From contig NZ_CP025003.1 in NCBI RefSeq assembly GCF_002812485.1, positions 2,108,001 to 2,172,000 of the forward strand: a stretch of DNA of 64,000 bases. The letters are read 5' to 3'. Positions 18,081-42,282 of this stretch are shown here, in pieces. The notes beneath the pieces are model-generated. The model was given only the letters and a program-made list of their open reading frames with translations, did no database searches and was not told the DNA's origin. The position numbers and the translations under genes are program-made. The number at the start of each line of letters is the position of its first letter. Position 1 is the stretch's first letter. This DNA comes from Dickeya fangzhongdai (lineage in GTDB: Bacteria > Pseudomonadota > Gammaproteobacteria > Enterobacterales > Enterobacteriaceae).

Positions 18081-18938
18081 TCAGGCGATGCCGACAGACG
18101 ACTGCTGTGACTTCAGCCAGGCGATTTCCTGCGCCCAGATATCCGGGTTGATGGTTTCCAGAATCAGCGGAATGCCGTCAAAGCGCGGGTCGCGCATAAT
18201 ATAGCTGAACACGGTTTTACCGATGTTGCCTTCCCCCAGGCTGTGATGACGGTCAACCCGGCTGTTGAATTCGCTTTTGGCGTCATTCAGGTGCATGCCG
18301 CGCAAATAGCGGAAACCGACTACGCGTTCCAGCTCGGCAAACGTGTGCTCGCAGTCGGCCTCGGTGCGCAGATCATAGCCGCCGGCAAAGGCGTGGCAGG
18401 TATCGATGCAGACGCCGACCCGGCTTTTGTCTTCCACCTGATCGATGATTTCCGCCAGATGTTCAAACCGAAACCCCAGGTTGCTGCCCTGACCGGCGGT
18501 GTTCTCGATCACCGCGGTCACGCCGGCGGTGGCGTCCAGCGCCAGATTAATAGACTGGGCGATGCGGCTCAGGCAGGTGCTTTCGTCGATCTGACGCAGG
18601 TGGCTGCCGGGATGGAAATTCAGCAGCGTCAGCCCCAGTTGCTGACAACGCGACATTTCGTCGATAAACGCCGTCTGGGACTTCTGCAAAGCGTCGTCGT
18701 CCGGGTGCCCCAGATTGATCAGGTAACTGTCGTGCGGCAGAATTTGGGCCGGGGCGAACTGATACTGCGCGCAGGCGGCCTGGAAACGCTCGATGACGTC
18801 CGCCGTCAACGCCGGGGCCTGCCACTGGCGCTGATTTTTGGTAAACAGCGCAAACGCGGTGGCGCCGATGTCATGGGCGCGGGCAACCGCCTGATCCACG
18901 CCGCCCGAGGCGCTGACGTGGGCTCCGACATATTTCAT
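18081..18938 (-). CDS. nfo: Deoxyribonuclease IV (endonuclease IV, Nfo)
   Basis: This AP endonuclease of base-excision repair has 285 residues, a TIM barrel with three zinc ions. Signature stretches include [32 protein letters not shown] ([13 protein letters not shown]) and [23 protein letters not shown] start at [13 protein letters not shown], which matches E. coli Nfo and has AAGGAGAA just upstream. The open frame extends 22 residues further but those are not conserved. The fruA side is the same as in E. coli, apart from the inserted caspase-like gene. Confidence 0.95.
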
Positions 18939-19018
18939 GTTTTTCTCCTTTTCATGCCCGCGCATTATGACATTACTGCTTAGCTGGCTGTAGCCTTGTT
19001 TCATCCATGTCGTTTCGC

Positions 19019-20101
19019 TCAGGCGAAGAGATGCTGTACCGCCAGATTGATGGCCGCGCCGCCCGCCACCAGCCAGATAAACAGGACCGCCGCCAGCAGC
19101 AGCGGTTTGATGCCGGCCTGTCGTAGCGTGCTCAGGCGCGTAGCCAGCCCCAGCGCCACCATCGCCATAGTCAACAGCGCATTATCCAGTTGCGTCAGCA
19201 TGGCGACCCAGCCCGCCGGTAGCCAGTTCAGCGAATTAACCCCGCACATCAACACAAAACCCAGGGCGAACCACGGATAACCCGCGGTAGCGGGCGCGGC
19301 GGCCTGATGTGCGGGTTGGCGCTGTTTCAGCCACAGGCCGAGGATAAACAGGAACGGCGCCAGCATCATCACACGCAGCATCTTGCCGATGACCGCCGTA
19401 TTCTCGGTTTCCGGGCCAATGGCATGACCGGCGGCCACCACCTGCGCGACTTCATGCACCGTTGAGCCGAGGTAGAGTCCGAAAGTCTGCGGGGTAAATA
19501 ACCAGCCGCTATACTGGATAAAATGTTGGTACAGCCACGGGTAAAAAAACATGGCGGTGGTGCCGAACAGCACCACGGTCGATACCGCCACCGCCACCTT
19601 GTCGGCGCTGCTTTTCAGCACCGGCGCGGTAGCCAGTACGGCGGCGGCGCCGCAAATGCTGCTGCCTGCGCCGATCAGCAATACGGTATGACGATCCAGC
19701 CGGAACCAGCGCTGTCCCAGCCAGCAGGCGAGCAGCAGGGTAGAGGTGAGCGTCAACAGGTCGATCACCAGACCGGCGGCGCCGATGGCGGTGATTTGCT
19801 GAAAGCTGAGTTTGAAGCCGTACAGGATGATGCCCCAGCGCAGCAGATGATGCCGGGACCACTGAACGCCGGCGTCGCACCAGGGTTGCAGATGCGCGTA
19901 GACGGTATTGCCCAGCACCATGCCAACCAGTATCGCCAGCGTCAGGGAACCTAGTCCCAATCCGGCTATCGTTGGCTGACCGGATAACCATAACACGCCC
20001 CGCGTCAGCAGGCCGGTCAGGATGACGCCGGTCAGCAGATGACCGGCGGCGGACAACGGGGAAAAGCGTTGTACCCTGGAAGAAAATGAAAACATAGTCA
20101 T
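19019..20101 (-). CDS. yeiH: YeiH family putative sulfate exporter (UPF0324)
   Basis: This is an inner-membrane protein of about 360 residues with ten or eleven hydrophobic helices. Similarity to E. coli YeiH includes LGIILYG(F), [16 protein letters not shown] and [16 protein letters not shown]. The family is annotated as putative sulfate exporters on weak evidence. It is divergent from the LysR gene yeiE, the usual arrangement for a regulated target. Start choice is uncertain: ATG at 20101 (used here), ATG at 20095 or GTG at 20107, none with a strong ribosome site. Confidence 0.88.
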
Positions 20102-20208
20102 ACCCACTCTGGATGATAGAGGTTGAGGGCACAGCCTATGATCAGCACACTTAAAATAGAAATTGATTATATATTTATAACCTATAGATATTTACGATAA
20201 GAGCCCCT

Positions 20209-21087
20209 ATGCATATTACGTTACGTCAACTGGAAGTGTTTACCGAAGTCCTGAAAAGCGGTTCAACAACGCAGGCGTCGGTGGTGTTGTCGCTGTCACA
20301 GTCGGCCGTCAGCGCGGCGCTGGCTGATCTTGAAAGTCAGTTGGGGGTGCAACTGTTTGACCGCGTCGGTAAACGGCTGGTGGTCAATGAGCACGGTCGC
20401 CTGTTGTATCCCAAAGCGCTGGCGCTGCTGGAACAGTCGGCTGAAATCGAGCAACTGTTCCGAAGCGATAACGGCGCGCTGCGCATTTATGCCAGCAGTA
20501 CCATCGGCAATTATCTGATGCCGGCGATGATCGCCCGCTACCGTCAGGATTTTCCGGCCATTCCGCTGGAGCTGTACGTGGGCAATACGCTGGATGTGGT
20601 CAATGCCGTTTCCGAATTCCGGGTCGATCTGGGGCTGATAGAAGGGCCGTGCCATCATCCCGATCTGATCACCCAGCCCTGGCGGGAAGATGAACTGGTG
20701 GTGTTTTGTGCTCCGGGTAATCCCCTGATTGATCGTGAGTTTACGTTGCAGATGCTGGCGGACGCTCCCTGGATCCTGCGTGAGCATGGTTCGGGAACGC
20801 GCGAAGTGCTGGACCACCTGCTGCTGGCGCGCCTGCCGCATTTCCGGCTGGTGATGGAGCTGGGCAACTCGGAGGCGATCAAGCACGCGGTGCGGCACGG
20901 TATCGGCATCAGCTGCCTGTCGCGCCATGTGATCGCCGATCAGCTTGATGCCGGCACGCTGGTGGAACTGCCGGTTCCTTTGCCGCCGCTAAACCGCACG
21001 CTGTATCTGGTGCACCACCGTCAGAAACATTTATCCGGCGTGCTGCAATGTTTTCTGGGGTACTGCCAGGGCGATGACGGTATCTAA
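20209..21087 (+). CDS. yeiE: LysR-family transcriptional regulator YeiE
   Basis: This is a 292-residue LysR regulator with an N-terminal winged helix ([20 protein letters not shown], helix-turn-helix at about 18-37) and a C-terminal type 2 periplasmic-binding-like effector domain. It is very similar to E. coli YeiE and divergent from yeiH. YeiE homologues have been linked to sulfite tolerance and to lysP control in other enterobacteria. Its position between yeiH and lysP is consistent with regulating either neighbour. Confidence 0.9.
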
Positions 21088-21250
21088 ACAGACTGGCAAC
21101 ACCGGTGTAACGAACCGGGCCTCAAGTCAGAGGGATTTCTTATGATGCCGGGTGAGTTATGAAGGTCTCTTATAATCCGCGCTGTGCGCTATTCAGCGGG
21201 TAGCGGATTGCCTACAATCCGCCCTCAAATTTTCAAGGGCATGGATTGTA

Positions 21251-22735
21251 ATGGCTCAACATGACACTCACTCCGCCGAACAGCGGGGAACCACACTGCG
21301 CCGTGAGCTGAAAGCGCGGCATTTGACGATGATCGCCATTGGCGGTTCGATCGGCACCGGATTGTTTGTCGCCTCCGGCGCGACGGTGTCGCAGGCCGGC
21401 CCCGGCGGCGCGCTGCTGTCCTATGCGCTGATCGGCCTGATGGTCTATTTCCTGATGACCAGTCTTGGCGAGCTGGCGGCATTCATGCCGGTTTCCGGCT
21501 CGTTCTCCACCTATGGCGCGCGCTATGTGGAAGAAGGGTTTGGCTTCGCGCTGGGCTGGAACTACTGGTACAACTGGGCGGTGACCATCGCGGTCGACCT
21601 GGTGGCGGCGCAACTGGTGATGGGATACTGGTTTCCGTCGGTGCCCGGCTGGGTGTGGAGCGCGCTGTTCCTGTCGCTGATGTTTTTGCTGAACTACATC
21701 TCCGTCAAAGGGTTTGGCGAAGCGGAATACTGGTTCTCGCTGATTAAGGTCACCACGGTAATCCTGTTTATCGCGGTCGGGCTGATGATGATGATCGGCA
21801 TTCTGCGCGGAGGCGAGCACGCGGGCTGGCATAACTGGCAGATTGGCGATGCGCCGTTCGCCGGCGGTTTTTCCGCCATGATCGGCGTGGCGATGATTGT
21901 CGGCTTCTCGTTCCAGGGCACGGAGCTGATTGGCGTGGCGGCGGGGGAATCAAAAGATCCGCAGACCAACATTCCGCGAGCGGTTCGTCAGGTGTTCTGG
22001 CGTATTCTGCTGTTCTATATTTTCGCCATTCTGATCATCAGTCTGCTGGTTCCTTACACCGACCCGAACCTGCTGCGCAATGATGTGAAAGACATCAGCG
22101 TCAGTCCATTCACGCTGGTGTTCGAGAACGCTGGCCTGCTGTCGGCGGCGGCGGTGATGAATGCGGTGATCCTGACCGCGGTGCTGTCGGCGGGTAATTC
22201 CGGCATGTACGCGTCCACCCGCATGCTGTTTACGCTGGCGCAGGAAGGCAAGGCGCCGGCCTGCTTCGGCAAACTGTCCAAAGGCGGGGTGCCGCGCAAC
22301 GCGCTGTACGCCACCACGGTGGTGGCGGGCCTGTGCTTCCTGTCTTCCATGTTCGGCAACCAGACGGTATACCTGTGGCTGCTGAATACCTCCGGCATGA
22401 CCGGGTTCATCGCCTGGCTGGGGATTGCCATCAGCCACTATCGTTTCCGTCGCGGCTACGTTATGCAGGGGCGCGATCTGAACGCGCTGCCGTACCGTTC
22501 CGGTTTCTTCCCGCTGGGCCCGATCTTTGCCTTCGTACTGTGCCTGATTATTACGCTGGGCCAGAACTATCAGGCGTTTCTGGCCGACAAGATCGACTGG
22601 TCCGCGGTGACGGCGACTTACATCGGTATTCCGCTGTTTCTGGTTATCTGGTTCGGCTACCGGTTGGTAAAAGGTTCGCGGGTGGTGAAATACAGCGAGA
22701 TGACGTTTCCTGAGCATCGTTCCGAGGAAAATTAA
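21251..22735 (+). CDS. lysP: Lysine-specific permease LysP
   Basis: This 12-helix amino acid:H+ symporter of the APC superfamily (494 residues) imports lysine. In E. coli it also acts as the sensor partner of CadC. The start region TTLRRELKARHLTMIAIGGSIGTGLFVASG is the classic AAP family signature, and similarity to E. coli LysP is end to end. No lysine riboswitch structure is apparent in the 163-base upstream gap, which contains a TATAAT at 21171-21176. A strong terminator follows. Confidence 0.94.
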   Translation: MAQHDTHSAEQRGTTLRRELKARHLTMIAIGGSIGTGLFVASGATVSQAGPGGALLSYALIGLMVYFLMTSLGELAAFMPVSGSFSTYGARYVEEGFGFALGWNYWYNWAVTIAVDLVAAQLVMGYWFPSVPGWVWSALFLSLMFLLNYISVKGFGEAEYWFSLIKVTTVILFIAVGLMMMIGILRGGEHAGWHNWQIGDAPFAGGFSAMIGVAMIVGFSFQGTELIGVAAGESKDPQTNIPRAVRQVFWRILLFYIFAILIISLLVPYTDPNLLRNDVKDISVSPFTLVFENAGLLSAAAVMNAVILTAVLSAGNSGMYASTRMLFTLAQEGKAPACFGKLSKGGVPRNALYATTVVAGLCFLSSMFGNQTVYLWLLNTSGMTGFIAWLGIAISHYRFRRGYVMQGRDLNALPYRSGFFPLGPIFAFVLCLIITLGQNYQAFLADKIDWSAVTATYIGIPLFLVIWFGYRLVKGSRVVKYSEMTFPEHRSEEN

Positions 22736-22756
22736 CTAACTGTTTCGTAAACAAAA

Positions 22757-22787
22757 AAGCCAGTCGGATTAGCGACTGGCTTTTTTT
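22757..22787 (+). terminator. Intrinsic terminator of lysP
   Basis: A 10-bp perfect stem (22757-22766 with 22773-22782) is followed by seven T, about 20 bases after the lysP stop. It can also act for the convergent sotB, since A-rich bases precede the stem. Confidence 0.9.
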
Positions 22788-22833
22788 ATGAGCGCTTGTT
22801 ATGAACGCCTTTTATGAACGAAAAAGATGGAAC

Positions 22834-24021
22834 TCAAATGCGGGAATGCACCAGCCGCACGTTGCGGTAAACGCTGAGCAGGGTGGCGAACAACGCCGCC
22901 AGCACCAGCGGCGCGCCGACATAACCGATTTTGTCCATCCCCAGATGCAGGCTGACCTGACTGCCCAGCAGCGCGCCGCCGCCGATGCCGAGGTTGAACA
23001 GCCCGGAGAAAATCGACATGGCGACATCGCTGGCGTCAGGCGCGAGCGACAGTACTTTGGCCTGCATTGCCAGCCCGATGGACATCATCGCCAGCCCCCA
23101 CACCAGACACAGCAGCGTCAGGCCGAACGGATAACCGGACAGCGGCATCAGCAGCGTCAGACAGGCCAGCAGCAGCAACATGGCGGTCACCAGAAAGCCA
23201 ATCGGGAAGCGCTCGCTGTAACGGCTATAGAGCATACTGCCCACGATCCCGGCGCAGCCGAACAACAGCAAAATCAGGGTAGTGAAGTTTTCCGGCAGAC
23301 CGGCCACCGTCTGGATAAACGGTTCGATATAGCTGTAGGCGGTGAAATGCGCGGTCACCACCACCACGGTCAGCAGGTAGATGCCGACCAGCGCCGGGCG
23401 GCGGAACAGCTTCGGCACGCTGGACAGCGAGCCGGAATGTTCGCTTGGCAGCAGCGGCAGCAAGCGCGCCAGCATGATCATGGCGACCGTGGCGCCGGCG
23501 GCAATGGTCAGGAAGGTCACACGCCAGCCGAGATACTGACCAATCACCCTTCCTAGCGGTAGCCCCAGCACCATCGCCAGCGACGACCCGGTGGCGATCA
23601 GCCCCAGTGCCTGCGCGCGTTTGCCGGGAGGCGCCATGCGAATCGCCAGCGAGGCGGTAATCGACCAGAATACCGAGTGCGCCAGCGCCACACCGGCGCG
23701 GGAAATGACCAGCACGGTAAAGTTCCAGGCCACGGCAGACAACAGGTGGCTGACGATAAACAGGCTAAACAGGCCGATCAGCAATTTACGACGCTCAATA
23801 CCGCTGGTCAGCAACATGCAGATCAGCGAAGCCACCGCCACAATCCAGGCATAAATAGTAATCATCAGACCGACATCTTCGGTTTTCATGGCAAAGGTGT
23901 TGGCGATGTCGCTCAGCAGCCCCACTGGAATAAATTCCGTGGTGTTGAAGATGAACGCGGCCACAGCCAGCGTCACCACGCGTAACCAGGCGGTGGAGCG
24001 TGAGGGGGAAGCGGATGTCAT
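22834..24021 (-). CDS. sotB: Sugar efflux transporter SotB
   Basis: This MFS exporter of 395 residues with 12 helices is close to E. coli SotB/YdeA and to the SotB of Erwinia chrysanthemi (Dickeya), which export arabinose and other sugars. Diagnostic blocks are [49 protein letters not shown] and [11 protein letters not shown] start at [15 protein letters not shown] (24021); the frame stays open to 24072. The gene is divergent from the tetronate-type cassette across an AT-rich gap and is not at this location in E. coli. Confidence 0.88.
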
Positions 24022-24697
24022 AGTCAGGTTCCAGTCGGGTATTACAAATTGCGAACGGCCTATTGTAGTCAATCGTGGGTTAAAATGCGATTACGATCAC
24101 ATTTCAATCAGGGGACGCCGCGCCTGAATCGTGGCTCGGCGCGCTGCTTTCGACGGCCGTTTGGCGTCCGTGCCGATAGCAGGCATCGTTGCGAAGACCG
24201 CCTAATATTATTGTAGATAGAATTATGCCGCCAATAATTGACGTTCAAAATTATGCGACATAATGAATATTATTATTTTGTTGTATTTGCTTATTTTAAA
24301 TAAGCTACATAAAGAAATATTATTTGTTTTCTTTGGTGTTTGGCTATTGTGACGCAACGAAAATATTAATTATGAATATTCTTTGTATGCGAATATATGA
24401 CGATTTTATTACGCTTTACATTTTCCAAATGAATGCCGGGGATTTTGCTTTTGGCAGGGGTTTATAACTTCTGAATAGCCGTCTTGTTATTTTTTTTGTG
24501 GGGTTTTTACTATTTGTTATGCCTAACCATAGAAAAATAAACTGGTATGCCTAAGAATTACCCTGGTAATTGTTTTATTTTACAGAGTGGTAACATGCAT
24601 AAGGTGGAATAGCTTTTTATAATGATGCATGAAATTGCGGTTGCAAAAGAAAAACAGGTGTGAGAACTTTATCACAAGCTTCGATGAGGGAACAGCA
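24022..24697. other. AT-rich gap between sotB and the biosynthetic cassette
   Basis: This gap is about 675 bases. From about 24190 to 24650 it is much richer in A and T than the flanking genes and contains no convincing gene. It must hold the promoter of the cassette and probably that of sotB. Such composition is typical of H-NS-silenced entry points of acquired clusters. The last bases carry a good ribosome site (GAGGG at 24686-24690). Confidence 0.6.
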
Positions 24698-25723
24698 ATG
24701 AGCGTATATATTAATGCGGTGGAAACCTATTTGCCTGGCCCGATTATTAGTAATCAGGAGTTGGGAAATAAAATCGGATTTAAACCTGAGTTAATTAAAA
24801 AGCTTTTCGGGAATACCGGTCGGCATTTTGCCGTTAATATGAATACCGGTAAACCTATCGCGTCGTCAGCGGAATTAATTACCATCGTAATCAAGAAACT
24901 CCTTTCCAGTTCCGGCATAAGTAAAGAACGCATCGATTTTATTATCGTAGCGTCCGCTACGCCTGATACGCTGTTGCCAAGTAGTGTAAATCAGGCGTGT
25001 CATGCCATGGGGTTTCGGCAGATAGAAACCTACCAGATTGTTTCGGGGTGTTCCGGCGCGGTACAGGCGCTCAAGCTGGCTCGTGAGCTGGTGGCGGCGC
25101 CGGACAATGGCCTGGACAACGGCCTGGTCATCGGGGTTGAGACAGCTTATAAATTCCTGGATATCTTTGATGAACATGCCGGTAAGAAAGAAACGAAAGA
25201 ACTGGTGAATTATACGCTGTTTGGCGACGGTGTCGGTGGATGCCTGCTCTCCAATCAGTCATCCGCATCCAGTATTGAGATTGAACATATTTCTTTTAAA
25301 TATCTGGGTGTTGATGAAGTGGTTGGGCAATTGGCAAATTGGCGTGGCACCCGTAATGATATTGATTATGGCGCTTTGCTGAATGAAGAATATAAATTGA
25401 TTGAGAAACTGGTGCCGGGTATTACCCAGGATACGATCAATGCATTAACGGATAAATTAGGCGGGCGTCCGGACTGGCTGCTGCCGCCGCAACTTTCCGG
25501 TTCGATGCTGGAGAAAATTTTGTCCGATATCGGTTATACGGCAGATGAAGTATTCAGCCTGGTGGATGAAATCGGTAATACCGCTAATGCTGCGTTATTT
25601 TTTCAGATAAAAGAATTCAGCGATATCTCTCTTGCCAATGAATGCGCCATCGGTATTTCTGTTGAGTCATCGCGTTGGCTGGCGGGTGGTCTGATTCTGC
25701 GAAACAGGAAAGGCCTTTTATAG
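24698..25723 (+). CDS. KASIII-like 3-oxoacyl-ACP synthase, tetronate-type cassette gene 1
   Basis: This thiolase-fold ketosynthase III-like protein (341 residues) has the nucleophile Cys118 in IVSGCSGAVQAL and Asn294 in EIGNTANAA. The position of the usual catalytic histidine reads LLPPQLSG, with Pro264 where PHQAN is expected. In tetronate pathways (RK-682, agglomerin) such an enzyme joins glyceryl-ACP to a 3-oxoacyl chain to form the tetronate ring; the neighbours here suggest this role. I start at the ATG at 24698 (GAGGG 7 bases upstream), because the 23 extra upstream residues are not family-like. Codon use is more AT-rich than the backbone. Confidence 0.78.
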   Translation: MSVYINAVETYLPGPIISNQELGNKIGFKPELIKKLFGNTGRHFAVNMNTGKPIASSAELITIVIKKLLSSSGISKERIDFIIVASATPDTLLPSSVNQACHAMGFRQIETYQIVSGCSGAVQALKLARELVAAPDNGLDNGLVIGVETAYKFLDIFDEHAGKKETKELVNYTLFGDGVGGCLLSNQSSASSIEIEHISFKYLGVDEVVGQLANWRGTRNDIDYGALLNEEYKLIEKLVPGITQDTINALTDKLGGRPDWLLPPQLSGSMLEKILSDIGYTADEVFSLVDEIGNTANAALFFQIKEFSDISLANECAIGISVESSRWLAGGLILRNRKGLL

Positions 25724-25747
25724 CATCATGTAAAAAGACCTTTTATC

Positions 25748-25979
25748 TATACCCGTCATACTTCAAGTTGCAGGCGCGTTGGCTTTATTACTCGGCCCAT
25801 CCTTGGGCCTCGCCCCTGCGGGGCTGAGGTAAACCGCGTTCAACGCTGCTTCCGGCAGCGTTGTCGCTTACCCCAGTCACTTGACTTCAGTAAGCTCCTG
25901 GGGATTCGCTGCGTCGCCGCCTTCCCGCAATTCGAATTATTTCGGGTATCTATCCGAAATAATTCGAGTTGCAGGGCAA
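25748..25979. repeat. Dispersed enterobacterial repeat, copy A, with inverted right end
   Basis: The left end reads TATACCCGTCATACTTCAAG and the right end CGCAATTCGAATTATTTCGG, ending in GTA at 25948. It is immediately followed by the same right-end motif in reverse orientation (CCGAAATAATTCGAGTTGCA, 25954-25973). The two right ends form a long hairpin with about 20 paired bases. It lies between genes 1 and 2 of the cassette, where the transcript would carry it. Confidence 0.75.
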
Positions 25980-26017
25980 CCGACAAGCGCGTAAGGATAA
26001 AGAGAATAAGGACATTT

Positions 26018-27766
26018 ATGAAACAGGACAATGCATTAAGTCGGATCGCCGCCTCGAAAAAAATTGCATCGGAAGGAAAGCGCATCGTTAACATAGCCAC
26101 TTTCAGCAATTTTAATCATAAAGCATTGAATGATCTGATTACGTTCAACCTGAATGACCTGGGCTGTTATCCATCCTTTTATGACGGTATTTACAGCGAC
26201 TATTTTCCCCACGTTTTGGGTAATGCCGCCGATATCAAGACGTTCGGGGCGCAATTTCATTTTTATGTCCTTGATTCTTCCTTTATCGAAAACGACATTG
26301 GTTCGCTGCTGCCGGTGGACGATATCCGCGACAATATCCGGGAGCACAAAAGTCGGCTGGCGTATCTGCTGAATTTTTCCGCTGTCGGCTGCGATGCCCG
26401 CATTGTGCTGAACACCGTCCATATCGCTGAATCGCAGCTCAAACAGATTATCGCGCAGGATCAGCGGGCGGCGTTGAAGCAACTGATCGGCGAGTTCAAC
26501 GCGTATCTTTTGGCGCTGGGGCAGACGGAAGATCGCGTGACGGTGGTCGATCTGCAGGAGACCGGCGGGACAGTGGAGGATGCGGCCACCCGCCGAGCGG
26601 CGCAGTTACTCGGTCTGGGCGTGGGTCTGGATGCGCTGGACGTTATTGCGCGCGCCGGCGTCGCCGCTATCCGGCACGCGCTGGGGAAAACGCTGAAATG
26701 CGTGGTCAGCGATCTGGATAACACGCTGTGGAAGGGCATTTTGGCGGACGACGGCGCCGACGGCATTCTGATGGCGGATAAACATATCGGCACGGGGCAC
26801 CTGCGCTATCAGGAGTATCTGCGCCATCTGTACGATCAGGGCGTCATTCTGGCCATTTGCAGCAAAAACAATCTGGAGAATGTGGAAGAGGCGTTTAAAC
26901 GCCGCGCCGACGAGATGCGCATTTCGCTGGACAAATTTTCCGTGGTCAGCGCCAACTGGCAGGGGAAAAGCGGCAACATCCTGAACATCGCCAACGAGTT
27001 GAATATCTCCCCGGAACACATGCTTTTTATTGACGACTCGGCGTTCGAATGCGCGGAAGTCAAGGCCCGTATTCCAGCCATCACCGTGCTGGAATTTTCC
27101 GGCGACGTGGCGGAGAACGTCGCCGCATTGATCGCCGCCGACTATTTCCTGCGTCCGACCATCAGCAGCGATGACCGCATGCGCAATCTGAGCTATGCGC
27201 AGAATAAACTCCGCACGGAGCTGCAAAAAGAATTTGCGGATGACCACGCCTTTCTGTCCAGCCTGGGCATGACGCTGACTATCCTGCCGGTGGAAACGTC
27301 CACGCTGGATCGCGTATCGCAACTGACGCTGCGCACCAACCAGTTCAATATGACGACGCAACGGATGACCACGCAGGACGTGGCCGGCTACCTCGCACGG
27401 GAAGGGCATCTGGCGGTTACGCTGGCATGCCGCGACCGAATCGGCGACTACGGCACCATCGGCGCGATATTTCTGCGTTTCGACGGCGATGGCTGCCACA
27501 TCGATAACTTCATCATGAGCTGCCGTATCTTCGGGCGTCAGATCGAGTTCGCGGCGATGCGCTGGCTGTTCGGCTTGTGCCGGGCGCGAGGTGTCGACCG
27601 GATTACCGCCGCGTACGGTCCGACCGAAAAAAATAAAAAATTCCAGCGTTTTTATCCGGATTGCGGGTTCGGCGAAACCGCAAGCAATGTGTTCACCGTT
27701 ATCGACCCGGCGCCCGCGTTGCTGACCGAGAACAGTAATACCGTCACTGTCAAAGAAGGGGAATGA
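26018..27766 (+). CDS. FkbH-like HAD-IIIC enzyme (probable glyceryl-ACP synthase), cassette gene 2
   Basis: This 582-residue protein has an N-terminal SGNH-like region (about 20-215), a HAD phosphatase domain with DLDNT at 232-236, a CSKNN motif near 281-285 and FIDDS at 337-341, and a C-terminal GNAT-like domain. FkbH enzymes take 1,3-bisphosphoglycerate, dephosphorylate it and load D-glycerate onto a stand-alone ACP. The adjoining ACP gene overlaps it. The start follows TAAGGA at 26007-26012. This is well known for extender units and tetronates; here the substrate is inferred from family and context. Confidence 0.82.
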   Translation: MKQDNALSRIAASKKIASEGKRIVNIATFSNFNHKALNDLITFNLNDLGCYPSFYDGIYSDYFPHVLGNAADIKTFGAQFHFYVLDSSFIENDIGSLLPVDDIRDNIREHKSRLAYLLNFSAVGCDARIVLNTVHIAESQLKQIIAQDQRAALKQLIGEFNAYLLALGQTEDRVTVVDLQETGGTVEDAATRRAAQLLGLGVGLDALDVIARAGVAAIRHALGKTLKCVVSDLDNTLWKGILADDGADGILMADKHIGTGHLRYQEYLRHLYDQGVILAICSKNNLENVEEAFKRRADEMRISLDKFSVVSANWQGKSGNILNIANELNISPEHMLFIDDSAFECAEVKARIPAITVLEFSGDVAENVAALIAADYFLRPTISSDDRMRNLSYAQNKLRTELQKEFADDHAFLSSLGMTLTILPVETSTLDRVSQLTLRTNQFNMTTQRMTTQDVAGYLAREGHLAVTLACRDRIGDYGTIGAIFLRFDGDGCHIDNFIMSCRIFGRQIEFAAMRWLFGLCRARGVDRITAAYGPTEKNKKFQRFYPDCGFGETASNVFTVIDPAPALLTENSNTVTVKEGE

Positions 27767-27768
27767 CC

Positions 27769-28008
27769 ATGAAACTGGACGATTTTATCGGCTTTATCAA
27801 CACCAAAACCGGCATGGCGCTGGCGACCGAGCAGGCGCAGGAAGATTTGACCAACCTTCCGGAGTGGGACTCGTTGACCTTCGTCTATCTGTTGATGGAA
27901 ATCGAAAAACAGCAGAGCGTCAAAATCGATGTCGAGAAGGTATTGCAGTGCACCACGCTGAATGACATTTACAGGGTTGTGAGCCATGAAGTTACTGAAA
28001 GTTTCTAG
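27769..28008 (+). CDS. Stand-alone acyl carrier protein, cassette gene 3
   Basis: This is a four-helix ACP of 79 residues with the phosphopantetheine serine at Ser35 in PEWDSLTFVYLL. It would hold the glyceryl thioester made by the FkbH-like enzyme. The ATG at 27769 has AGAAGGGG 7 bases upstream. The ATG at 27763, overlapping the preceding stop, is too close to that site. The stop overlaps the next gene by 23 bases. A phosphopantetheinyl transferase must come from elsewhere in the genome. Confidence 0.85.
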   Translation: MKLDDFIGFINTKTGMALATEQAQEDLTNLPEWDSLTFVYLLMEIEKQQSVKIDVEKVLQCTTLNDIYRVVSHEVTESF

Positions 28009-28732
28009 GGAAAGGCGCCAGACGCTCTCTTTTCTGGCGATATCCAGGGGCATTCCGGCCATTACCGTCATGCGCGAGATAGATGTCTCGCGCATTGTGG
28101 CGGGCGGGCTGCAGCGCAGCATGACGGCGATTACCATCAAGGCGATCAGCGAGGCGCTGCGTCAGTTTCCGCAACTGAACGCGATGGTCCGATTCGGCAG
28201 CGACAGCACGCTGATTTGCCCGGACAACATCAGTACCCGGGTGACGCTGGAAAAGGTGCTGAACGGCGTGTCCGGGGTGTATTCGCGGGTGATCAGCAAT
28301 ACGGATCGGCTGTCTGTTGCCGATATCGAACGGGCGCTGCAGCAGTTCAAGCAGGAGGACGCGGCTACCAGCGAGCATTACGAGAAAATTCGCCTTATTC
28401 AGCGATTGCCGCCGTTACTGGCCGGCCTGTTGCTGCGGCTGGCGATGCTGTCGCCGACGCGGCAGGCGGAAACCTGGGGCAGCTTCACCGTGACATCGCT
28501 GGGGAAAAACAGCCCCGACGCCTGTATCCCCATATCCGGTTCCACGTTCACGTTTACGCTGGGGTTGATTAACGAAAAGTTGTCGCGAAACTCGCATGAC
28601 GTGGCGGTGTCGCACGTGGCGAATCTGTCGATGATTTTCGACCATCGCGTGCTGGACGGCCGGCTGGCGTCAGAGTTTCTGGCGCAGATAAAAAGCAACA
28701 TGGAAGGTTTTGCACTGGAGTCATCATCATGA
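27986..28732 (+). CDS. 2-oxoacid dehydrogenase E2-like acyltransferase, cassette gene 4
   Basis: This 248-residue protein consists only of the CoA-dependent acyltransferase catalytic domain of lipoamide E2 proteins. It has no lipoyl or peripheral-subunit domains, and the active-site motif DHRVLDG is at 219-225 with His220. Such free-standing domains (Agg4, QmnD3) acetylate the hydroxymethyl group of a tetronate before elimination. It overlaps the ACP gene by 23 bases and the next gene by 4, indicating tight translational coupling. Without this context it could be read as a broken E2 gene, but the reading frame is full length for the isolated domain. Confidence 0.8.
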   Translation: MKLLKVSRERRQTLSFLAISRGIPAITVMREIDVSRIVAGGLQRSMTAITIKAISEALRQFPQLNAMVRFGSDSTLICPDNISTRVTLEKVLNGVSGVYSRVISNTDRLSVADIERALQQFKQEDAATSEHYEKIRLIQRLPPLLAGLLLRLAMLSPTRQAETWGSFTVTSLGKNSPDACIPISGSTFTFTLGLINEKLSRNSHDVAVSHVANLSMIFDHRVLDGRLASEFLAQIKSNMEGFALESSS

Positions 28733-29802
28733 TGCTTGATGAACTCAAGAATTTTGTGCTGCTGCACAGCAATGTGCTGAATGTCGGCGCGGAAACCCGC
28801 GCCATCCTGCCGGATATTCATCATCTGGGCGACGATTTGCCGCATAGCTGGAGCCAGGTGTTTTACCGTCAGGCGCAAAATTATGAAAATCAAGGTGAAT
28901 TGCTCAAGGCGTGTTCGCTTTACAACCTGGCGCGTTTTCCCTATCCGGAAACACCGCTCCAGCATGAGAGCAACCGGCATTGTCAACGGTTGTTCCGCCG
29001 GCAGTATATCGAGAGCGGCACGGTGACGAGGGTCAGTCTGTCGCAGGGGCGGCAGGTGTGCTACGTCAGAAAAAAGAACACCGGCAACGTCGTCATTATT
29101 AATGGGGGCATTATCTCGCTGAAAGAGCAGTGGGTGCATCTGGTGGGTCTGTTCGAACGTTTCGACGTTACCGTGGTGTTGACGGAAATGCCGGGGGTGG
29201 GGGAAAACCAGTTGCCCTACAACGAACAATCCTTCCGCATGTACAGCGACGTGCTGGATTACCTCGCCCAGGATCGATCCGACATCCGGTGCCATATTTT
29301 CGGCCTGAGTTTCAGCGGGTTTATCGCGTACAAGAACAGCCTGACCGACAGCCGCATCGTGGGCATCACTATGGCGGGCACGCCGCTGGATTCGCTGTAC
29401 CACGATCGGGATGTCTATCGGCGGCTACCTTACGTTACACGGTTGGTCATCGGGCATAACGTGGGGAAAACGCATCCGGAACTGGATGACGACGACAAGG
29501 TATTTCGTTACCTCGATACCACGTTTGTGATGCGCCAGGAGGATATCAACCATGGCGTCAGACTGTATTACGTTCAGAGCCTGCGCGACGAAGTGATCCC
29601 GAACGTCGAAGCGGACACGATCCGCCGGTTGTCCCGGCAGCACCATATTCTGTCGCTGGATGACGTGCATGGGTCGCCCGGGTACGGCAAAACCGTGCGG
29701 GTTTATTTGCTGTGGTCGTTGCTGGATTCGCTGCGCCTGTCGCGGGTTCTGGCCGGCGTCGCCAGGCTGGGGTTTCGCATCCTGCGGCGTCTGAAGCGAT
29801 AG
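28729..29802 (+). CDS. Alpha/beta hydrolase-fold eliminase, cassette gene 5
   Basis: This 357-residue protein has a helical N-terminal part (about 1-95) followed by an alpha/beta hydrolase fold. Visible elements are INGGIISLKEQW, a likely oxyanion-hole region near 124-135, and the nucleophile elbow FGLSFSG with Ser194. In agglomerin-type pathways a protein of this fold (Agg5, QmnD4) removes acetate from the acetylated tetronate to give the exocyclic methylene. The C-terminus is arginine-rich. It starts within the end of gene 4. A hairpin with T-run follows after about 120 bases. Confidence 0.76.
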   Translation: MMLDELKNFVLLHSNVLNVGAETRAILPDIHHLGDDLPHSWSQVFYRQAQNYENQGELLKACSLYNLARFPYPETPLQHESNRHCQRLFRRQYIESGTVTRVSLSQGRQVCYVRKKNTGNVVIINGGIISLKEQWVHLVGLFERFDVTVVLTEMPGVGENQLPYNEQSFRMYSDVLDYLAQDRSDIRCHIFGLSFSGFIAYKNSLTDSRIVGITMAGTPLDSLYHDRDVYRRLPYVTRLVIGHNVGKTHPELDDDDKVFRYLDTTFVMRQEDINHGVRLYYVQSLRDEVIPNVEADTIRRLSRQHHILSLDDVHGSPGYGKTVRVYLLWSLLDSLRLSRVLAGVARLGFRILRRLKR

Positions 29803-29920
29803 GCGGTGTCTCGTCAGGATTCGTGTGCCGACGCGGATCCTAAACGCGGCAATCGACGCACAGAGCACCGCGTAGAAGCGGGTCGGTACACGGAGCCGGC
29901 AATGCCGGGCGCGGCGCGTT

Positions 29921-29948
29921 GGGGCGGTAATACCGGCCCCATTTTTTA
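29921..29948 (+). terminator. Probable intrinsic terminator of the tetronate-type cassette
   Basis: GGGGCGGT pairs with ACCGGCCCC with one bulged base (29921-29940), followed by ATTTTTTAT. It lies about 120 bases after gene 5 and just before the convergent permease gene. Confidence 0.65.
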
Positions 29949-29969
29949 TGTGCCGCGCCGTCTCGTCGG

Positions 29970-30977
29970 TCAGCGTTTCTGGAAATAGGTCAGCGCCAGC
30001 GCCAGCGCCAGCACCAGACCTTTGATGATATCCATGGCGTAGTAAGGCACGGACAGCATCACCAGCCCGTTTTGCAGCACGCCGAGGATCACCGCGCCGA
30101 CCAGCGTTCCCAACGCATTGGGTTTGCCGGAACCGGCCAGCGAAAAACCGATATAGGCGGCGGCCACCGCGTCCATCAGGTACCCGCCGCCGGCGTTGAC
30201 CTGCGAAGAGCCGATGCGGGACGCCAGCAGGATGCCGCCCAGCGCGGCCAGCAGCGACGAAAGCAGATAGGCCAGCACGCGGTAACGGGCAGTGCGAATA
30301 CCGGCCAGCCGCGCGGCTTCCGGATTACCGCCAATCGCGTACATGCGGCGGCCGTGCTTGGTCAGCGACATATACAGTTGCACCAGCACCGTCACCACCA
30401 GCATGATCACCACAATCACCGGCACCTGTCCCAGCGTGGCGAACACCTCGGGGATTACGCCTTCCGCCATCTCGCCGCTCGGCAGCAGCATATTTTGGGT
30501 GATGGAGCCGCCGTAGCTGTAGGTCATGGCGACGCCCTGAATCACGAACAGGCTGGCCAGCGTCGCCAGCATGTCGGGAATCCGCAATATCACAATCAAA
30601 AACGCGTTGAACAGCCCCACCAGCAGACACAGCGTCAGCGTCAATACAATCGCGCCGGTGGTGCCAAAACCGTGCCAGACGAACAGCGAGACAACCAGCG
30701 CGTTCGCCAGCGAGGCGGTCGACCCGACCGACAGGTCGAAACCGCCGACCGACAGCGAGATGGAAACGGCTATCGCGATCACCGTGACGATGGCGATGGA
30801 ACGCAGGATATTGATGATGTTGTTCGGATCCAGAAAATTGTCCGACGCCAGCCCGAACAGGGCGATCAGCGCGACGACGGTAATCAGCATCCCCCATTTG
30901 TAGAACAGGTCAAACAGGCGGTGGTGAAAGGGGAGCGCTTCGTTGGGCGCGCCGTTGGATGCAAGTGGCTGACTCAC
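29970..30977 (-). CDS. CUT2-type sugar ABC transporter permease (RbsC/MglC-like)
   Basis: This is an inner-membrane permease of 335 residues in the BPD_transp_2 family, with about ten hydrophobic helices. Family blocks include VGGFDLSVGSTASLANAL, AIGGNPEAARLAGI and GSGKPNALGTLVGAVILG. The GTG start at 30977 overlaps the stop of the ATPase gene as GTGA and has GGAGG nearby; the frame is open upstream to 31085 but that part is arginine-rich and not family-like. Substrate is unknown: no binding protein gene is adjacent. In E. coli the mgl genes lie near this locus, but here the order and partners differ. Confidence 0.83.
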   Translation of the reverse strand: MSQPLASNGAPNEALPFHHRLFDLFYKWGMLITVVALIALFGLASDNFLDPNNIINILRSIAIVTVIAIAVSISLSVGGFDLSVGSTASLANALVVSLFVWHGFGTTGAIVLTLTLCLLVGLFNAFLIVILRIPDMLATLASLFVIQGVAMTYSYGGSITQNMLLPSGEMAEGVIPEVFATLGQVPVIVVIMLVVTVLVQLYMSLTKHGRRMYAIGGNPEAARLAGIRTARYRVLAYLLSSLLAALGGILLASRIGSSQVNAGGGYLMDAVAAAYIGFSLAGSGKPNALGTLVGAVILGVLQNGLVMLSVPYYAMDIIKGLVLALALALTYFQKR

Positions 30978-32485
30978 GCGGGAGTTCCTCCGGTTGAATA
31001 AAGTAACAACGTCTCTTCGTCGGCGTCGGCGCCGTCCAGTTCGGCGACGATACGCCCGTCCCACAGCACGCAGATTCGGTCGCACAGGCCCACCAGTTCG
31101 GAGAACTCGCCGGAGGCGTAAATCACGCCTTTGCCCTGCTGCGCCAGCGAATCGATCAGGGTAAATAAATCCTGTTTGGCTTTGATGTCCACGCCTTTGG
31201 TGGGTTCATCCAGAATCAACACCTGCACGTCGCTGCGCAGCCATTTGCCGATCGCCACTTTTTGTTGATTGCCGCCGGACAGACGGCGCAACCGCTGTTG
31301 CGGCCCGCTGGTGCGGATGGTCAGCTGCTGGATCAAATCGCGGGCCCAGGTCAGCGCCTGACCGTGACCGAAAACGCCGTAGCGGGAAAAGCTGTCGCTG
31401 GCGCTGATGCTGAGATTCATGGTGACGGATTCGTCAATAAATATGCCTTCTTTGCGCCGCTCTTCCGGCACCAGTGCGATACCCTGCTGGACCGCGTCGG
31501 CCGGCGAGGTAGGGCGCCAGGGCTTTCCCTGATAGCGTCCGGAGTCGATGCGGCTGCGGGCGGCGCCGAACAGCGCCTTGCACAGCTCGGTCTTACCGGC
31601 GCCGGCAAGACCGGCGATGCCGAGAATCTCGCCTTTGCGCAGCCGGAGCGAAATGTTGTGCAGCAGGGTGTCGTCATGCAGACCGTCTACCTGCAACAGC
31701 GGCTCTGCGTCCGTGAGCGTGCGGCGCGGCGGGAAAATATCATCCAACCGATGACCCAGCATCCGCTCGACAATTTCCCCGCCGCTTAGCCCCTGCATTG
31801 GGCCGCTGCTGACAAACTGCCCATCGCGCAACACGGTCAACGTATCGCAGATGGCTTTCAGTTCGTGGATACGGTGCGAAATGAAGACGATGCCGATACC
31901 GTCCTGCTGCAGACGGCGCACGACGGCGAACAGCCGGGCGCTTTCTTCCTGGTCGAGCGGGGCGGTAGGTTCGTCAAGAATCAGAAACCGGCAGCGGTGG
32001 GAGAGGGCGCGCGCCAGCAGGATTTGCTGTTTTTCCGCCAGCGTACACTGTTCCAGCCGCTGGCGGACATTGATGCTGACCCCCAGTTGCGTCAGCAAGG
32101 CCTGCGCCTGCTGGTAAAGCGTTGACCAGTTGAGCACGTGACCGCTCTGTGCCAACTGGTCCAGCATGATATTTTCCGCCACCGACAGCGTAGGGACCAG
32201 CGCGGCGTCCACTTCCTGCTGAACCAGATGAATACCGTGGCGTTTGGCGTCGCGGGGAGAATGAATTGCGACTTTTTCGCCATCCAGCAGGATATCTCCG
32301 CTGTAATGGTCATAAGATCCAGAAAGAATCGCCATCAGCGTGGATTTTCCCGCGCCGTTGGCGCCGGTCAGCGCGTGGATAGATCCGCCTTCCAGCGTGA
32401 AATTCACCTGTCTGAGCGCCGGGAATCCGGCAAAAGAGATGGAAATGTAGCGCATTTCCAGACGCGAACGCGGGTTTATGGACAT
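30974..32485 (-). CDS. CUT2-type sugar ABC transporter ATP-binding protein (RbsA/MglA-like)
   Basis: This tandem ATPase has about 503 residues. The N-terminal half has Walker A GANGAGKST and Walker B LILDEPT but a degenerate signature (CTLAEKQQ). The C-terminal half has GLAGAGKTEL in place of a strict Walker A and a good LSGGNQQK signature with LILDEPTKGVD. This asymmetry is normal for the RbsA class. The start at ATG 32485 is chosen; a TTG at 32497 is possible. It is translationally coupled to the permease. The pair lacks a periplasmic binding protein in this window. Confidence 0.84.
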   Translation of the reverse strand: MSINPRSRLEMRYISISFAGFPALRQVNFTLEGGSIHALTGANGAGKSTLMAILSGSYDHYSGDILLDGEKVAIHSPRDAKRHGIHLVQQEVDAALVPTLSVAENIMLDQLAQSGHVLNWSTLYQQAQALLTQLGVSINVRQRLEQCTLAEKQQILLARALSHRCRFLILDEPTAPLDQEESARLFAVVRRLQQDGIGIVFISHRIHELKAICDTLTVLRDGQFVSSGPMQGLSGGEIVERMLGHRLDDIFPPRRTLTDAEPLLQVDGLHDDTLLHNISLRLRKGEILGIAGLAGAGKTELCKALFGAARSRIDSGRYQGKPWRPTSPADAVQQGIALVPEERRKEGIFIDESVTMNLSISASDSFSRYGVFGHGQALTWARDLIQQLTIRTSGPQQRLRRLSGGNQQKVAIGKWLRSDVQVLILDEPTKGVDIKAKQDLFTLIDSLAQQGKGVIYASGEFSELVGLCDRICVLWDGRIVAELDGADADEETLLLYSTGGTPA

Positions 32486-32863
32486 AATTGACAACAACGG
32501 GTTCTTAACAGCGATAATGACGGGAGGTCGACGTTGAAAAATATCATATTAACCGCAGAATGGAATGCCTGAATGGGCTTGCGGACGCCCCAGAGAAGAA
32601 ATGAAAAAGCATAACTTAAGCAAAAACGTTATTAAGACCCGCGCCGGCTATCCCTAAAGAGGGCTTTTCCGCGCAGGATTCCAGATTAAACAGCGCATTA
32701 TCTCTACCCGTCATGCTTTACGTTGCCGGTGCGTCGGCCGCCCTCGTTCGCTTCGGTCACTGATCCATGTAAGCGCCTGGGCATTTACACGGTTGCCGTC
32801 TGACCGCAACTCGAATTATTTTGTGTGACGACAAGAATTTATTCAGACAGGAATGTATCCGTA
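32486..32863. other. Divergent gap between ABC transporter and hcxA
   Basis: This gap of about 378 bases holds repeat copy B (32703-32827) in its right part. The left part has no recognisable gene and must hold the leftward promoter of the ABC transporter. No operator motif was recognised. Confidence 0.5.
32703..32827. repeat. Dispersed enterobacterial repeat, copy B
   Basis: The left end TACCCGTCATGCTTTACGTT and the right end GCAACTCGAATTATTTTGTG are about 100 bases apart, the same end motifs as copy A. The core differs. It lies just upstream of hcxA. Confidence 0.7.
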
Positions 32864-33952
32864 ATGAGTAGCACTGATATTCGGGTCCAGGTGGGACCGG
32901 CCAACTATTTTTCTTTCCCAGGGGCGATCGACAAGCTGAACGAATTTTATCCGGACGAGGTGCTGGCCCGCGCGTTCTGGATACACGGCGAACGCGCGCT
33001 GGCGGCGACGCACGCTTATCTGCCGGCGGCGTTTTCTGCGCCGACGGCCCGGTTGGCCGGTTTTTCGGCACACTGCAGTGAAAATGAAATTGCGCGGTTG
33101 ACGGCGGCGGCGGGCGATGACCGCACCGTGGTGATTGGCGTGGGCGGCGGCGCGGTGCTGGACACCGCCAAGGTGGTGGCGCGTCGTCTTGGCCTGCCGC
33201 TGGTGGCGATTCCGACCATTGCCGCGACCTGCGCCGCCTGGACGCCGCTCTCGGTCTGGTACAACGAGGCCGGGCAGGCGCTGCGATTCGAGATTTTCAA
33301 CGATGCCAACCATCTGGTGCTGGTGGAACCGCGTATTCTGCTGGCGGCGCCGGTGGAGTACTTGCTGGCGGGGATCGGCGATACGCTGGCGAAATGGTAT
33401 GAGGCGGTGGTGTTAAGCCCGCAGCCGGAAACCCTGTCGCTGACGGTGCGTCTGGGTTTGCAGACCGCGCAGGATATCCGCGATGTGCTGCTGAACCAGA
33501 GCGAATCTGCGTTGAAGGCGGCGCATAATGCCACGCTGAACCAGGATTTTCTGGATGTTGTCGACGCGATTATCGCCGGCGGCGGCATGGTGGGCGGGTT
33601 GGGCGAGCGTTACACCCGGGTGGCGGCGGCGCACGCGGTGCACAACGGTTTGACGGTACTGCCGCAGACGGCGCATTTTCTGCATGGCACCAAAGTAGCC
33701 TACGGCATTCTGGTACAGTGCGCGCTGCTGGGGCAAACCGATACGCTGCGTCAGCTGAAAGCGGCGTTCCGGGTCTTCGGGCTGCCGGTGTCGCTGGCCG
33801 AACTGGATGTGGATATTAGCGATGAAGCGGCATTGCAGGCGGTCATCGCCCGTACTTTGCAGAGTGGCGAATCCATTCATTATCTGCCCGGTCCGCTGGA
33901 CGCTGACACGCTACTGACCGCGTTCCGGGCAGTGGAACTGGCGAACGGCTAA
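32864..33952 (+). CDS. hcxA: Hydroxycarboxylate dehydrogenase HcxA (YbdH), iron-containing ADH family
   Basis: This 362-residue oxidoreductase is similar along its length to E. coli YbdH/HcxA, which reduces 2-oxo acids such as 2-oxobutyrate with NADPH. The nucleotide motif GVGGGAVLDTAK and the blocks IPTIAATCAAWTPLSVWYN, GIGDTLAKWYEAVV and AAAHAVHNGLT are clear. The ATG at 32864 fits relatives (VRVVGPANYF-like start VQVGPANYFSF). In E. coli this gene is elsewhere in the chromosome, so its place here is part of the accessory region. Any link to the ABC transporter is only positional. Confidence 0.9.
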   Translation: MSSTDIRVQVGPANYFSFPGAIDKLNEFYPDEVLARAFWIHGERALAATHAYLPAAFSAPTARLAGFSAHCSENEIARLTAAAGDDRTVVIGVGGGAVLDTAKVVARRLGLPLVAIPTIAATCAAWTPLSVWYNEAGQALRFEIFNDANHLVLVEPRILLAAPVEYLLAGIGDTLAKWYEAVVLSPQPETLSLTVRLGLQTAQDIRDVLLNQSESALKAAHNATLNQDFLDVVDAIIAGGGMVGGLGERYTRVAAAHAVHNGLTVLPQTAHFLHGTKVAYGILVQCALLGQTDTLRQLKAAFRVFGLPVSLAELDVDISDEAALQAVIARTLQSGESIHYLPGPLDADTLLTAFRAVELANG

Positions 33953-33960
33953 TAAAGCAA

Positions 33961-33985
33961 CGGGGCGGTTTTTTAAACCGCCCCG
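33961..33985. terminator. Hairpin between convergent hcxA and KTSC gene
   Basis: CGGGGCGGTTT (33961-33971) pairs with AAACCGCCCCG (33975-33985), an 11-bp perfect stem with a 3-base loop, 9 bases after hcxA. No long T-run follows on either strand, though the stem itself has terminal A/T pairs. Confidence 0.55.
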
Positions 33986-34000
33986 TCATTGAGGGCTGGG

Positions 34001-34213
34001 TTATTGCAGTTTGTCATACGGAAAGGAATTCCTGATGTAACGTGCGTAATAACGCGCTTTGGCGTTAGAGGCCATTAACTCCTCATAAATCATTCGTGCT
34101 ACGTTTTTGTACTGAAACAGACTGCCGTTCAGTAATTCTACTTCTAATGTGCTGGTTTCCGAATCGTAACCTACGGCAAACAGCTCGGTGGAAGATACAC
34201 GTTTGCGTTGCAA
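34001..34213 (-). CDS. KTSC domain-containing protein
   Basis: This is a 70-residue protein that is essentially one KTSC domain: VSSTELFAVGYDSETSTLEVELLNGSLFQYKNVARMIYEELMASNAK. The family occurs in bacteria and phages, sometimes fused to lysyl-tRNA synthetase-like or nucleic-acid enzymes, and its function is not established. There is no signal peptide or membrane helix. The start is the first ATG (34213), with GGAGCAATTTG just upstream on its strand. It is transcribed alone. Confidence 0.75.
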   Translation of the reverse strand: MQRKRVSSTELFAVGYDSETSTLEVELLNGSLFQYKNVARMIYEELMASNAKARYYARYIRNSFPYDKLQ

Positions 34214-34542
34214 AACAAATTGCTCCCTGTTGATGGTTGCGATGTAACGGTAATGTTACTTGCTGTGTTTTTTTTGGTCAACGTCGACGCCAGAGGGTCG
34301 AAAAAATCGTCAGCAAAACAGACGAAAGAATACAAGAACAGCTTATTATTTCCCTATTTCACCTGCACATCGGCAGATGATGCCACGTTTGCAGGAATCT
34401 ATCCGTCAGTCAACGATTGGCTGTCAGGATGAATTCCTGTTTTGGTGGCGATCACGTTTTTAATGTCATACCGGCACATCAGCGGTGGTTCAATCTGAAC
34501 CGTCTGTTGTGCCGGTTTTATCGCATTATTAAACAACTCTGA
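34214..34542. other. Intergenic region between KTSC gene and fghA
   Basis: This gap of 329 bases is open in places, but the frames look random. Near its right end is a long interrupted hairpin (ACCGGCAC at 34470-34477 with GTGCCGGT at 34509-34516, inner pairing around GGTTCA/TGAACC) followed on the plus strand by TTTATC. This may end fghA transcription from the other side. Confidence 0.45.
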
Positions 34543-35388
34543 TCAGTTCGACTGCAAGTGCTTTGCATGAAAACGCAGATGATCTTCGATAAAGCTGGCG
34601 ATGAAGTAGTAGCTGTGGTCATAACCCGGCTGAATACGCAGCGTCAGCGGCCATTGCCGTGCGCTGGCGACGGCTTCCAACTGCTCCGGCTGAAGCTGGA
34701 CGGGCAGGAAGCTGTCGCCGTCGCCCTGATCGATCAACGTCGGCAGCGGCGCGTCGCTGTGAGCGAGCAGATGACAACTGTCGTACTGCAGCCACTGCTG
34801 GCGGTCGTCGCCCAGATAGGCGCTGAAGGCTTTCTGCCCCCAGGGCACCTGCGTCGGGTTGACGATTGGCGCAAAGGCCGACACCGAACGAAAACGCCCC
34901 GGATGGCGCAGCGCCAGCATCAGCGCGCCGTGCCCGCCCATCGAATGACCGCTGATGGCGACCCGATCGCTGGCGCTGACGTGCTGGCGCACCAGCGCCG
35001 GCAGTTCGTCGCTGATATAGTCGAACATGCGGAAATGCCGGTCCCAGGGGGATTGCGTGGCGTTGACATAAAAACCGGCGCCTTTACCCAGATCGTACTG
35101 GGCGTCGTCCGCAACCTCATCGCCGCGCGGACTGGTGTCCGGCATCACCAGCGCCAGCCCCAGTTCCGCCGCCACCCGCTGGGCGCCGGACTTGAAGGTG
35201 AAATTCTCGTCGTTGCAGGTCAGCCCCGACAGCCAGTACAGCACCGGCGGCGGAGCCTCCCCGGCGAGGGGAGGATAAAACACGCTGAAGGTCATGTCGC
35301 AGTTCAACGTGGCGGAGGCATGGCGGTAACGCCGCTGCCAGCCGCCGAACAACCGGTGTTCTTCCAGCAATTCCAGTGACGCAGTCAT
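34543..35388 (-). CDS. fghA: S-formylglutathione hydrolase
   Basis: This esterase-D family alpha/beta hydrolase has 281 residues and completes glutathione-dependent formaldehyde oxidation by releasing formate and glutathione. The nucleophile motif is [10 protein letters not shown], with [10 protein letters not shown] and the C-terminal His in [12 protein letters not shown]. It is similar to E. coli FrmB and YeiG; yeiG occupies this locus in E. coli. I start at [16 protein letters not shown] (35388), with AGGAAAC upstream. The frame is open to 35409, where it would overlap frmA by one base. It forms an operon with frmA. Confidence 0.92.
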
Positions 35389-35408
35389 GGTGTGCGAGTT
35401 TCCTGTCA

Positions 35409-36545
<1,137 letters not shown>

Positions 36546-36627
36546 TCAGAGTGGCGCAGCCGCCGGAATGACGCAGCGGCTGCCAGGGATAATGCGGCAT
36601 TGACATCGAATGCCGACAGGGAATGCA

Positions 36628-37491: not shown

Positions 37492-37739
37492 ATTATTCTC
37501 TTTACGTGAATAACTTTTGTTGAGTTGTTTATTTATATTGAGTGTAACGGTTGTGTTTGCCACTGGCAACCCGGTTGTTGATCCGGTTGCTGACCGCCAG
37601 AAACGGTGTGGAAATGCATTTGGCGTCATCACCGTGTCGGATACGGCCCAATGTGTGCTACCGGTGATGAAAGACCGGTGGTCATGGTTATATGGAAAAC
37701 CCCGATTAGGCGAACATGTAATTGGCGAGCGTTGACTAT

Positions 37740-42255: not shown

Positions 42256-42282
42256 TACGCTTCTGGTTCTCTCACGCTATCT

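Follow-up and report, generated by a model that had tools for sequence, protein, structure and literature searches.

Within a 64,000-nucleotide stretch of the Dickeya fangzhongdai genome (NZ_CP025003.1, positions 2,108,001 to 2,172,000; hereafter the window), five consecutive genes at 24698..29802 on the plus strand encode a FabH-like ketosynthase, an FkbH protein, an acyl carrier protein (ACP), a free E2-type acyltransferase and an alpha/beta hydrolase. The initial annotation, made from the sequence alone, had proposed this set as a tetronate biosynthesis cassette, and its gene positions, gene order and active-site motif were reproduced here, all five open reading frames (ORFs) lying on the plus strand and none containing an internal stop. 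Overlaps of 4, 23 and 4 bp join the last four genes, in line with the coupling that had been claimed, and 294 bp lie between the ketosynthase and FkbH genes. As detailed below, it is highly probable that the cassette specifies an agglomerin-type pathway without a polyketide synthase (PKS) of its own. The cassette is an optional unit beside one major facilitator superfamily (MFS) gene and has probably moved between genera. The features of the cassette are the following:

24698..25723, plus strand: FabH-like (AbyA1/RkD-type) ketosynthase, expected to close the tetronate ring (family match, residues)
25748..25984, edges approximate, no strand assigned: dispersed genomic repeat between the ketosynthase and FkbH genes (genome-wide matches)
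26018..27766, plus strand: FkbH-type HAD enzyme, expected glyceryl-ACP synthase (TIGR01686, 286 bits)
27763..28008, plus strand: stand-alone ACP, expected phosphopantetheine Ser codon at 27871-27873 (WDS) (PP-binding)
27986..28732, plus strand: free E2-type acyltransferase (Agg4/AbyA4-like), expected to acetylate the hydroxymethyl group (catalytic domain, DHRVLDG)
28729..29802, plus strand: alpha/beta hydrolase-fold lyase (Agg5/AbyA5-like), expected to eliminate acetate (AbyA5 match, Ser194/Asp287/His314)

For the ketosynthase gene an alternative in-frame ATG is found upstream, at 24629; the start at 24698 was preferred because GAGGG stands just before it. The product scored 32 bits with the ACP_syn_III model (cut-off 24) and 82 bits with the fabH model, under the cut-off of 292 of the latter. 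Its best match among Protein Data Bank (PDB) sequences was 5by7 (E 5e-49, 170 bits; next entry 71 bits), a record with the title 3-oxoacyl-ACP synthase III which we take to be AbyA1. The protein keeps Cys118 and Asn294 and carries Pro264 at the position of the FabH His. The same Pro is found in all seven cassette ketosynthases compared (the one of the window plus six) and likewise in 5by7, and the housekeeping FabH of the same genome has the motif PHQAN, with His present. We infer from these residues that Cys and Asn kept together with a replaced His mark a 5by7-type enzyme; judging from FabH chemistry, the loss of the His would fit a ketosynthase that does not decarboxylate malonyl-ACP.

The hydrolase matched an FrsA-like hydrolase family with 22.5 bits (cut-off 22), which is weak taken alone, but in a search of PDB sequences at E 0.001 AbyA5 of abyssomicin biosynthesis was its sole relative (two sequences, best E 3e-44) and its closest solved homologue. 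Ser194, Asp287 and His314 are invariant across six sequences, and AbyA5 has the same Ser/Asp/His positions. The acyltransferase (248 aa) showed the catalytic domain of the 2-oxoacid_dh family alone in Pfam (66 bits, cut-off 23), with no lipoyl domain, and its HxxxDG motif reads FDHRVLDG; the DHRVLDG previously noted was located at 28640-28660. The FkbH domain (TIGR01686) was found with the 286 bits given above against a cut-off of 147, and the ACP scored 27 bits with the PP-binding model (cut-off 21), again weak taken alone. Judged by family, the FkbH-like, ACP and FabH-like enzymes of a glycerate-utilisation tetronate operon are all represented, and the pair of the acetylation-elimination steps, a stand-alone E2-type acyltransferase without lipoyl domain and an AbyA5/Agg5-type lyase, was found as well. 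The tetronate reading is strengthened by the grouping of hydrolase and ketosynthase with tetronate enzymes and by a gene order equal to that of abyA1-A5. Furthermore, a chance association of the five genes is excluded, since the five-gene set recurs in all seven further loci, in one of which the hydrolase is cut by the contig end and in another of which the FkbH gene lies in two frames. In the latter (L014, 10246-11992, minus strand; genome G014) the FkbH matches fall in two reading frames, reflecting a broken gene or frameshift, or a sequencing error.

The steps of the pathway can be proposed from characterised homologues, as far as the observed enzyme families, gene order and conserved active-site residues allow. 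FkbH would load glycerate from 1,3-bisphosphoglycerate onto the ACP, and the FabH-like enzyme would join glyceryl-ACP and a 3-oxoacyl thioester, most likely supplied by fatty acid synthesis, through C-C and C-O bonds to give a 3-acyl-5-hydroxymethyl tetronate. The E2-like enzyme would then acetylate the primary hydroxyl using acetyl-CoA and the hydrolase-fold enzyme would eliminate acetate, leaving a 5-methylene group. Families and characterised homologues alike lend support to the scheme of glycerate loading, 3-oxoacyl condensation, acetylation and elimination proposed earlier. The product had been named a 3-acyl-4-methylene tetronate; the type, an acyl tetronate with an exocyclic methylene, can be kept, but the methylene is placed on ring carbon 5 instead, because a review describes the formal dehydration of 5-hydroxymethyl tetronates, and a 3-acyl-5-methylene product would be expected. 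According to the published account, the 3-acyl tetronate is built by FkbH-like and FabH-like proteins together with an ACP, and acetylation by Agg4 followed by elimination by Agg5 gives the exocyclic methylene, with knockout, complementation and in vitro support; RK-682 is also taken by Agg4/Agg5 as a substrate (PMC4979870). In the abm system, abmA4 and abmA5 mutants are described as accumulating the hydroxy and acetyl intermediates (PMC5819245).

Among known systems, the agg cluster of Pantoea agglomerans PB-6042 (HF565364.1) is alike by its published description, being enterobacterial and using an E2-like acetyltransferase followed by elimination, and the gene order fits the assignment of Agg3 as ACP, Agg4 as acyltransferase and Agg5 as dehydratase (PMC4979870). 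The abyssomicin genes abyA1-A5 match the cassette family by family and in their order; unlike the cassette, they are actinobacterial, are fed by a modular PKS and belong to a pathway that continues to a spirotetronate (PMC3625739). The RK-682 system (rkD and partners) shares FkbH, ACP and the FabH-like ring closure (PMC4979870). All five families, 32-37% identical, also occur in Rouxiella badensis (L040) and Phaseolibacter flectens (L041). The latter differs in having a PKS, an extra ACP and acyl-CoA dehydrogenase-like, flavin adenine dinucleotide (FAD) monooxygenase-like and thioesterase genes interleaved or adjacent, and the former has a similar layout, judged from ORF sizes and order and first residues only.

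That such clusters occur in Dickeya is already known from a 2024 survey which reports agglomerin clusters in 178/516 Dickeya, 2/6 Musicola and 1/2,527 Pantoea genomes and states that the identity of the producer PB-6042 cannot be confirmed (PMC11350110). The main texts of two D. fangzhongdai genome papers using antiSMASH mention neither 'FkbH' nor any term starting with 'tetron', so that the cassette may be easy to overlook. In the passages of PMC4552970 examined, 'tetronate' occurs only inside a reference title.

Genomes and contigs were searched for relatives of the cassette. The family search matched 11 of 295 genomes, of which eight were kept, the window's own included; G075, G196 and G270 were set aside as generic FrsA-like hydrolases (20-22% identity, E about 1e-4). 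A class-wide search with the hydrolase alignment gave three of 369 genomes, namely the window's own and two with short weak matches that were taken as generic hydrolases. A single-protein scan of the genome contig collection found no relative, and an alignment scan of the same collection gave seven loci, six of them with all five families and one, in Streptomyces (L043), with the last two families only. Beyond the lineage of the window, five-gene sets were found in Enterobacter asburiae TN152 (L038) and Proteus myxofaciens (L042, cut at the contig end). The stretches examined of Prodigiosinella, L038 and L042, the last covering only 9 kb, showed no ORF of the size of a PKS. The first 3,994 bp of the E. 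asburiae cassette had no match in E. coli genomes. A plasmid origin was rejected, the plasmid protein search with the hydrolase having returned five records at 28-32% identity and the plasmid DNA search only short matches to the dispersed repeat. The genome of the window includes a 5,284-bp plasmid (L052; G000 contig C2, 1-5284) that shares 99.8% identity with two Dickeya fangzhongdai plasmids and about 99% with E. coli and Salmonella records; the annotation of these records lists mobilization genes and anti-phage genes of the Kiwa type (kwaA/KwaB-like).

The surroundings of the cassette are occupied by the following features:

22834..24072, minus strand: left flank, MFS transporter, NCBIfam sugar transporter PRK03545 (610 bits)
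24073..24697, plus strand: upstream region, AT-rich (37% GC), its last ~70 bp conserved (comparison of the holders)
29970..31085, minus strand: right flank, permease of a sugar-type ATP-binding cassette (ABC) transporter (gene scan)

The cassette is present in three of nine same-genus genomes, and in the six without it the same MFS and sugar-ABC genes are directly adjacent, 127-212 bp apart. Both immediate neighbours occur in genomes lacking the cassette, and since the MFS gene is present with or without it, we do not regard this gene as a dedicated part. Three genera have the cassette next to this MFS gene: in G014, of another genus, it lies between the same MFS and sugar-ABC genes, and in a third genus (G057 and G184) it adjoins the MFS gene and has a formylglutathione hydrolase gene on the right side. 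G057 is Prodigiosinella confusarubida LacA (L037), a laboratory strain with a diverged five-gene set.

Comparison of the window with G014 at third codon positions gave identities of 0.71-0.83 for the cassette genes (FkbH over 475 codons) and of 0.57-0.69 for eight flanking genes. At the amino-acid level the cassette of G014 was 0.88-0.94 identical and its flanks 0.79-0.93, the cassette being at least as conserved as the flanks, whereas within the genus (G282) it was less conserved than they are (0.90-0.94 versus 0.92-0.98). Because the G014 cassette is less diverged from the window than the G014 flanks are, it looks as though the cassette moved between the two genera after they had separated, and recombination within the flanks common to both would be the simplest route. 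Plain vertical inheritance with losses was considered and rejected: it needs at least three presence/absence changes on the flank tree, yet between G014 and the window the cassette differs less than the flanks do. Speaking against transfer, the within-genus control G282 also showed an excess at third codon positions, though a smaller one (0.75-0.85 for the cassette, 0.66-0.77 for the flanks), and part of the G014 excess may be an effect of codon bias or rate. Prodigiosinella compared with the window gave the reverse of the G014 pattern, with amino-acid identities of 63% for the cassette and 81% for five flanking genes. A tree of the four close cassette copies had no resolved branching.

Upstream of the ketosynthase gene, the last ~70 bp in the window are well kept in three close holders and weakly in Prodigiosinella. 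Within 24629-24697 we observed TGTGA-8-TCACA, imperfect in two other holders and possibly regulatory. The counts of promoter-like and terminator-like sequences were within about one standard deviation of those in shuffled sequences.

Eleven flanking genes were scanned (18081 to 37632). On the left these are genes for a TIM-barrel protein, a conserved hypothetical protein, a LysR protein, an amino acid permease and the MFS sugar transporter, and on the right for the permease and the ATPase of a sugar-type ABC transporter, an oxidoreductase resembling glycerol dehydrogenase, S-formylglutathione hydrolase, a class III alcohol dehydrogenase and a second LysR protein, a regulator. The lack of a PKS stated in the initial annotation holds for this neighbourhood, as none was found among the eleven genes and the longest ORF in the window has 603 aa, the rest of the genome not having been searched for PKS. 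Further to the right, 38223-48938 holds five successive plus-strand ORFs of 553-575 aa, the first of them a methyl-accepting chemotaxis protein; the chemotaxis genes gave only short Salmonella matches in a search of a phage collection. The small RNA RybB lies at 62196-62274 on the minus strand (Rfam RF00110, 85.5 bits).

Several points weigh against the agglomerin-type assignment. Among the neighbours no gene was recognised as a dedicated exporter, regulator or resistance determinant, and the agg cluster was published as 8,009 bp with seven ORFs (PMC11350110), as against five genes between resident neighbours in the window. The FkbH protein alone cannot tell tetronate from methoxymalonyl pathways. 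Moreover, the dispersed repeat parts the first gene from the other four, and expression could be affected. This repeat (25748-25984) gave 69 matching pieces in the same genome, where one copy may give several pieces, and a plasmid DNA search returned three records, all from Klebsiella, each matching only 84-87 bp of it at ~92% identity; in related genomes the ketosynthase and FkbH genes are separated by different sequences (137, 303, 167 and 30 bp).

The repeat, the absence of the cassette from six of nine same-genus genomes and the FkbH gene in two frames in G014 could be taken as signs that the cassette is silent or in decay and makes no product in this strain. We consider this very improbable, since all five ORFs of the window are open with active-site residues conserved, and identity to two same-genus copies is higher in amino acids (90-98%) than at third codon positions (75-92%), as under purifying selection.

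The pathway might instead stop earlier, with an RK-682-like 5-hydroxymethyl tetronate or its 5-acyloxymethyl ester as the product and the last two enzymes serving another acyl transfer or hydrolysis. The hydrolase keeps the Ser/Asp/His set expected of an esterase, and RK-682 retains its hydroxymethyl group and is not known to involve the Agg4/Agg5 steps. For the same reason the earlier designation as an agglomerin/RK-682-type set stands for agglomerin and for the last steps of quartromicin and is given up for RK-682. AbyA5, however, carries the same Ser/Asp/His, the acetyl intermediate remains when its homologue AbmA5 is lost, and the acyltransferase and hydrolase genes accompany the other three in 7/7 loci (one hydrolase truncated), so that such an early stop is a most unlikely outcome.

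That the FkbH/ACP pair supplies hydroxy- or methoxymalonyl-ACP to another assembly line, given the same FkbH family, a stand-alone ACP and the start of such pathways from the same glyceryl-ACP (PMC7489565), is scarcely credible and was rejected, because the eleven flanking genes include no O-methyltransferase, no acyl-CoA/hydroxyacyl dehydrogenase pair and no PKS, and the other three cassette genes are tetronate-type. A closer kinship to such unrelated families had been named as what would speak against the tetronate assignment; among PDB sequences, hydrolase and ketosynthase proved closest to tetronate enzymes, with no methoxymalonyl partner genes among the flanking genes scanned.

Taking the agglomerin-type pathway as the preferred reading, its chemistry itself is already established; this analysis adds that the cassette occupies a single site, that it shows a sign of transfer between genera and that diverged relatives exist. 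A broader picture, which we offer as a possibility rather than as an expectation, would make agglomerin a product of Dickeya, Musicola and Prodigiosinella encoded by a one-site module swapped via shared flanks, with PB-6042 either misidentified or a recipient, and the diverged branch of Prodigiosinella, Enterobacter asburiae and Proteus leading to undescribed relatives of the compound. With only five small genes, the set lends itself to heterologous work. If the genes are expressed, soft-rot bacteria would own a tiny antibiotic pathway that works without a dedicated polyketide synthase.

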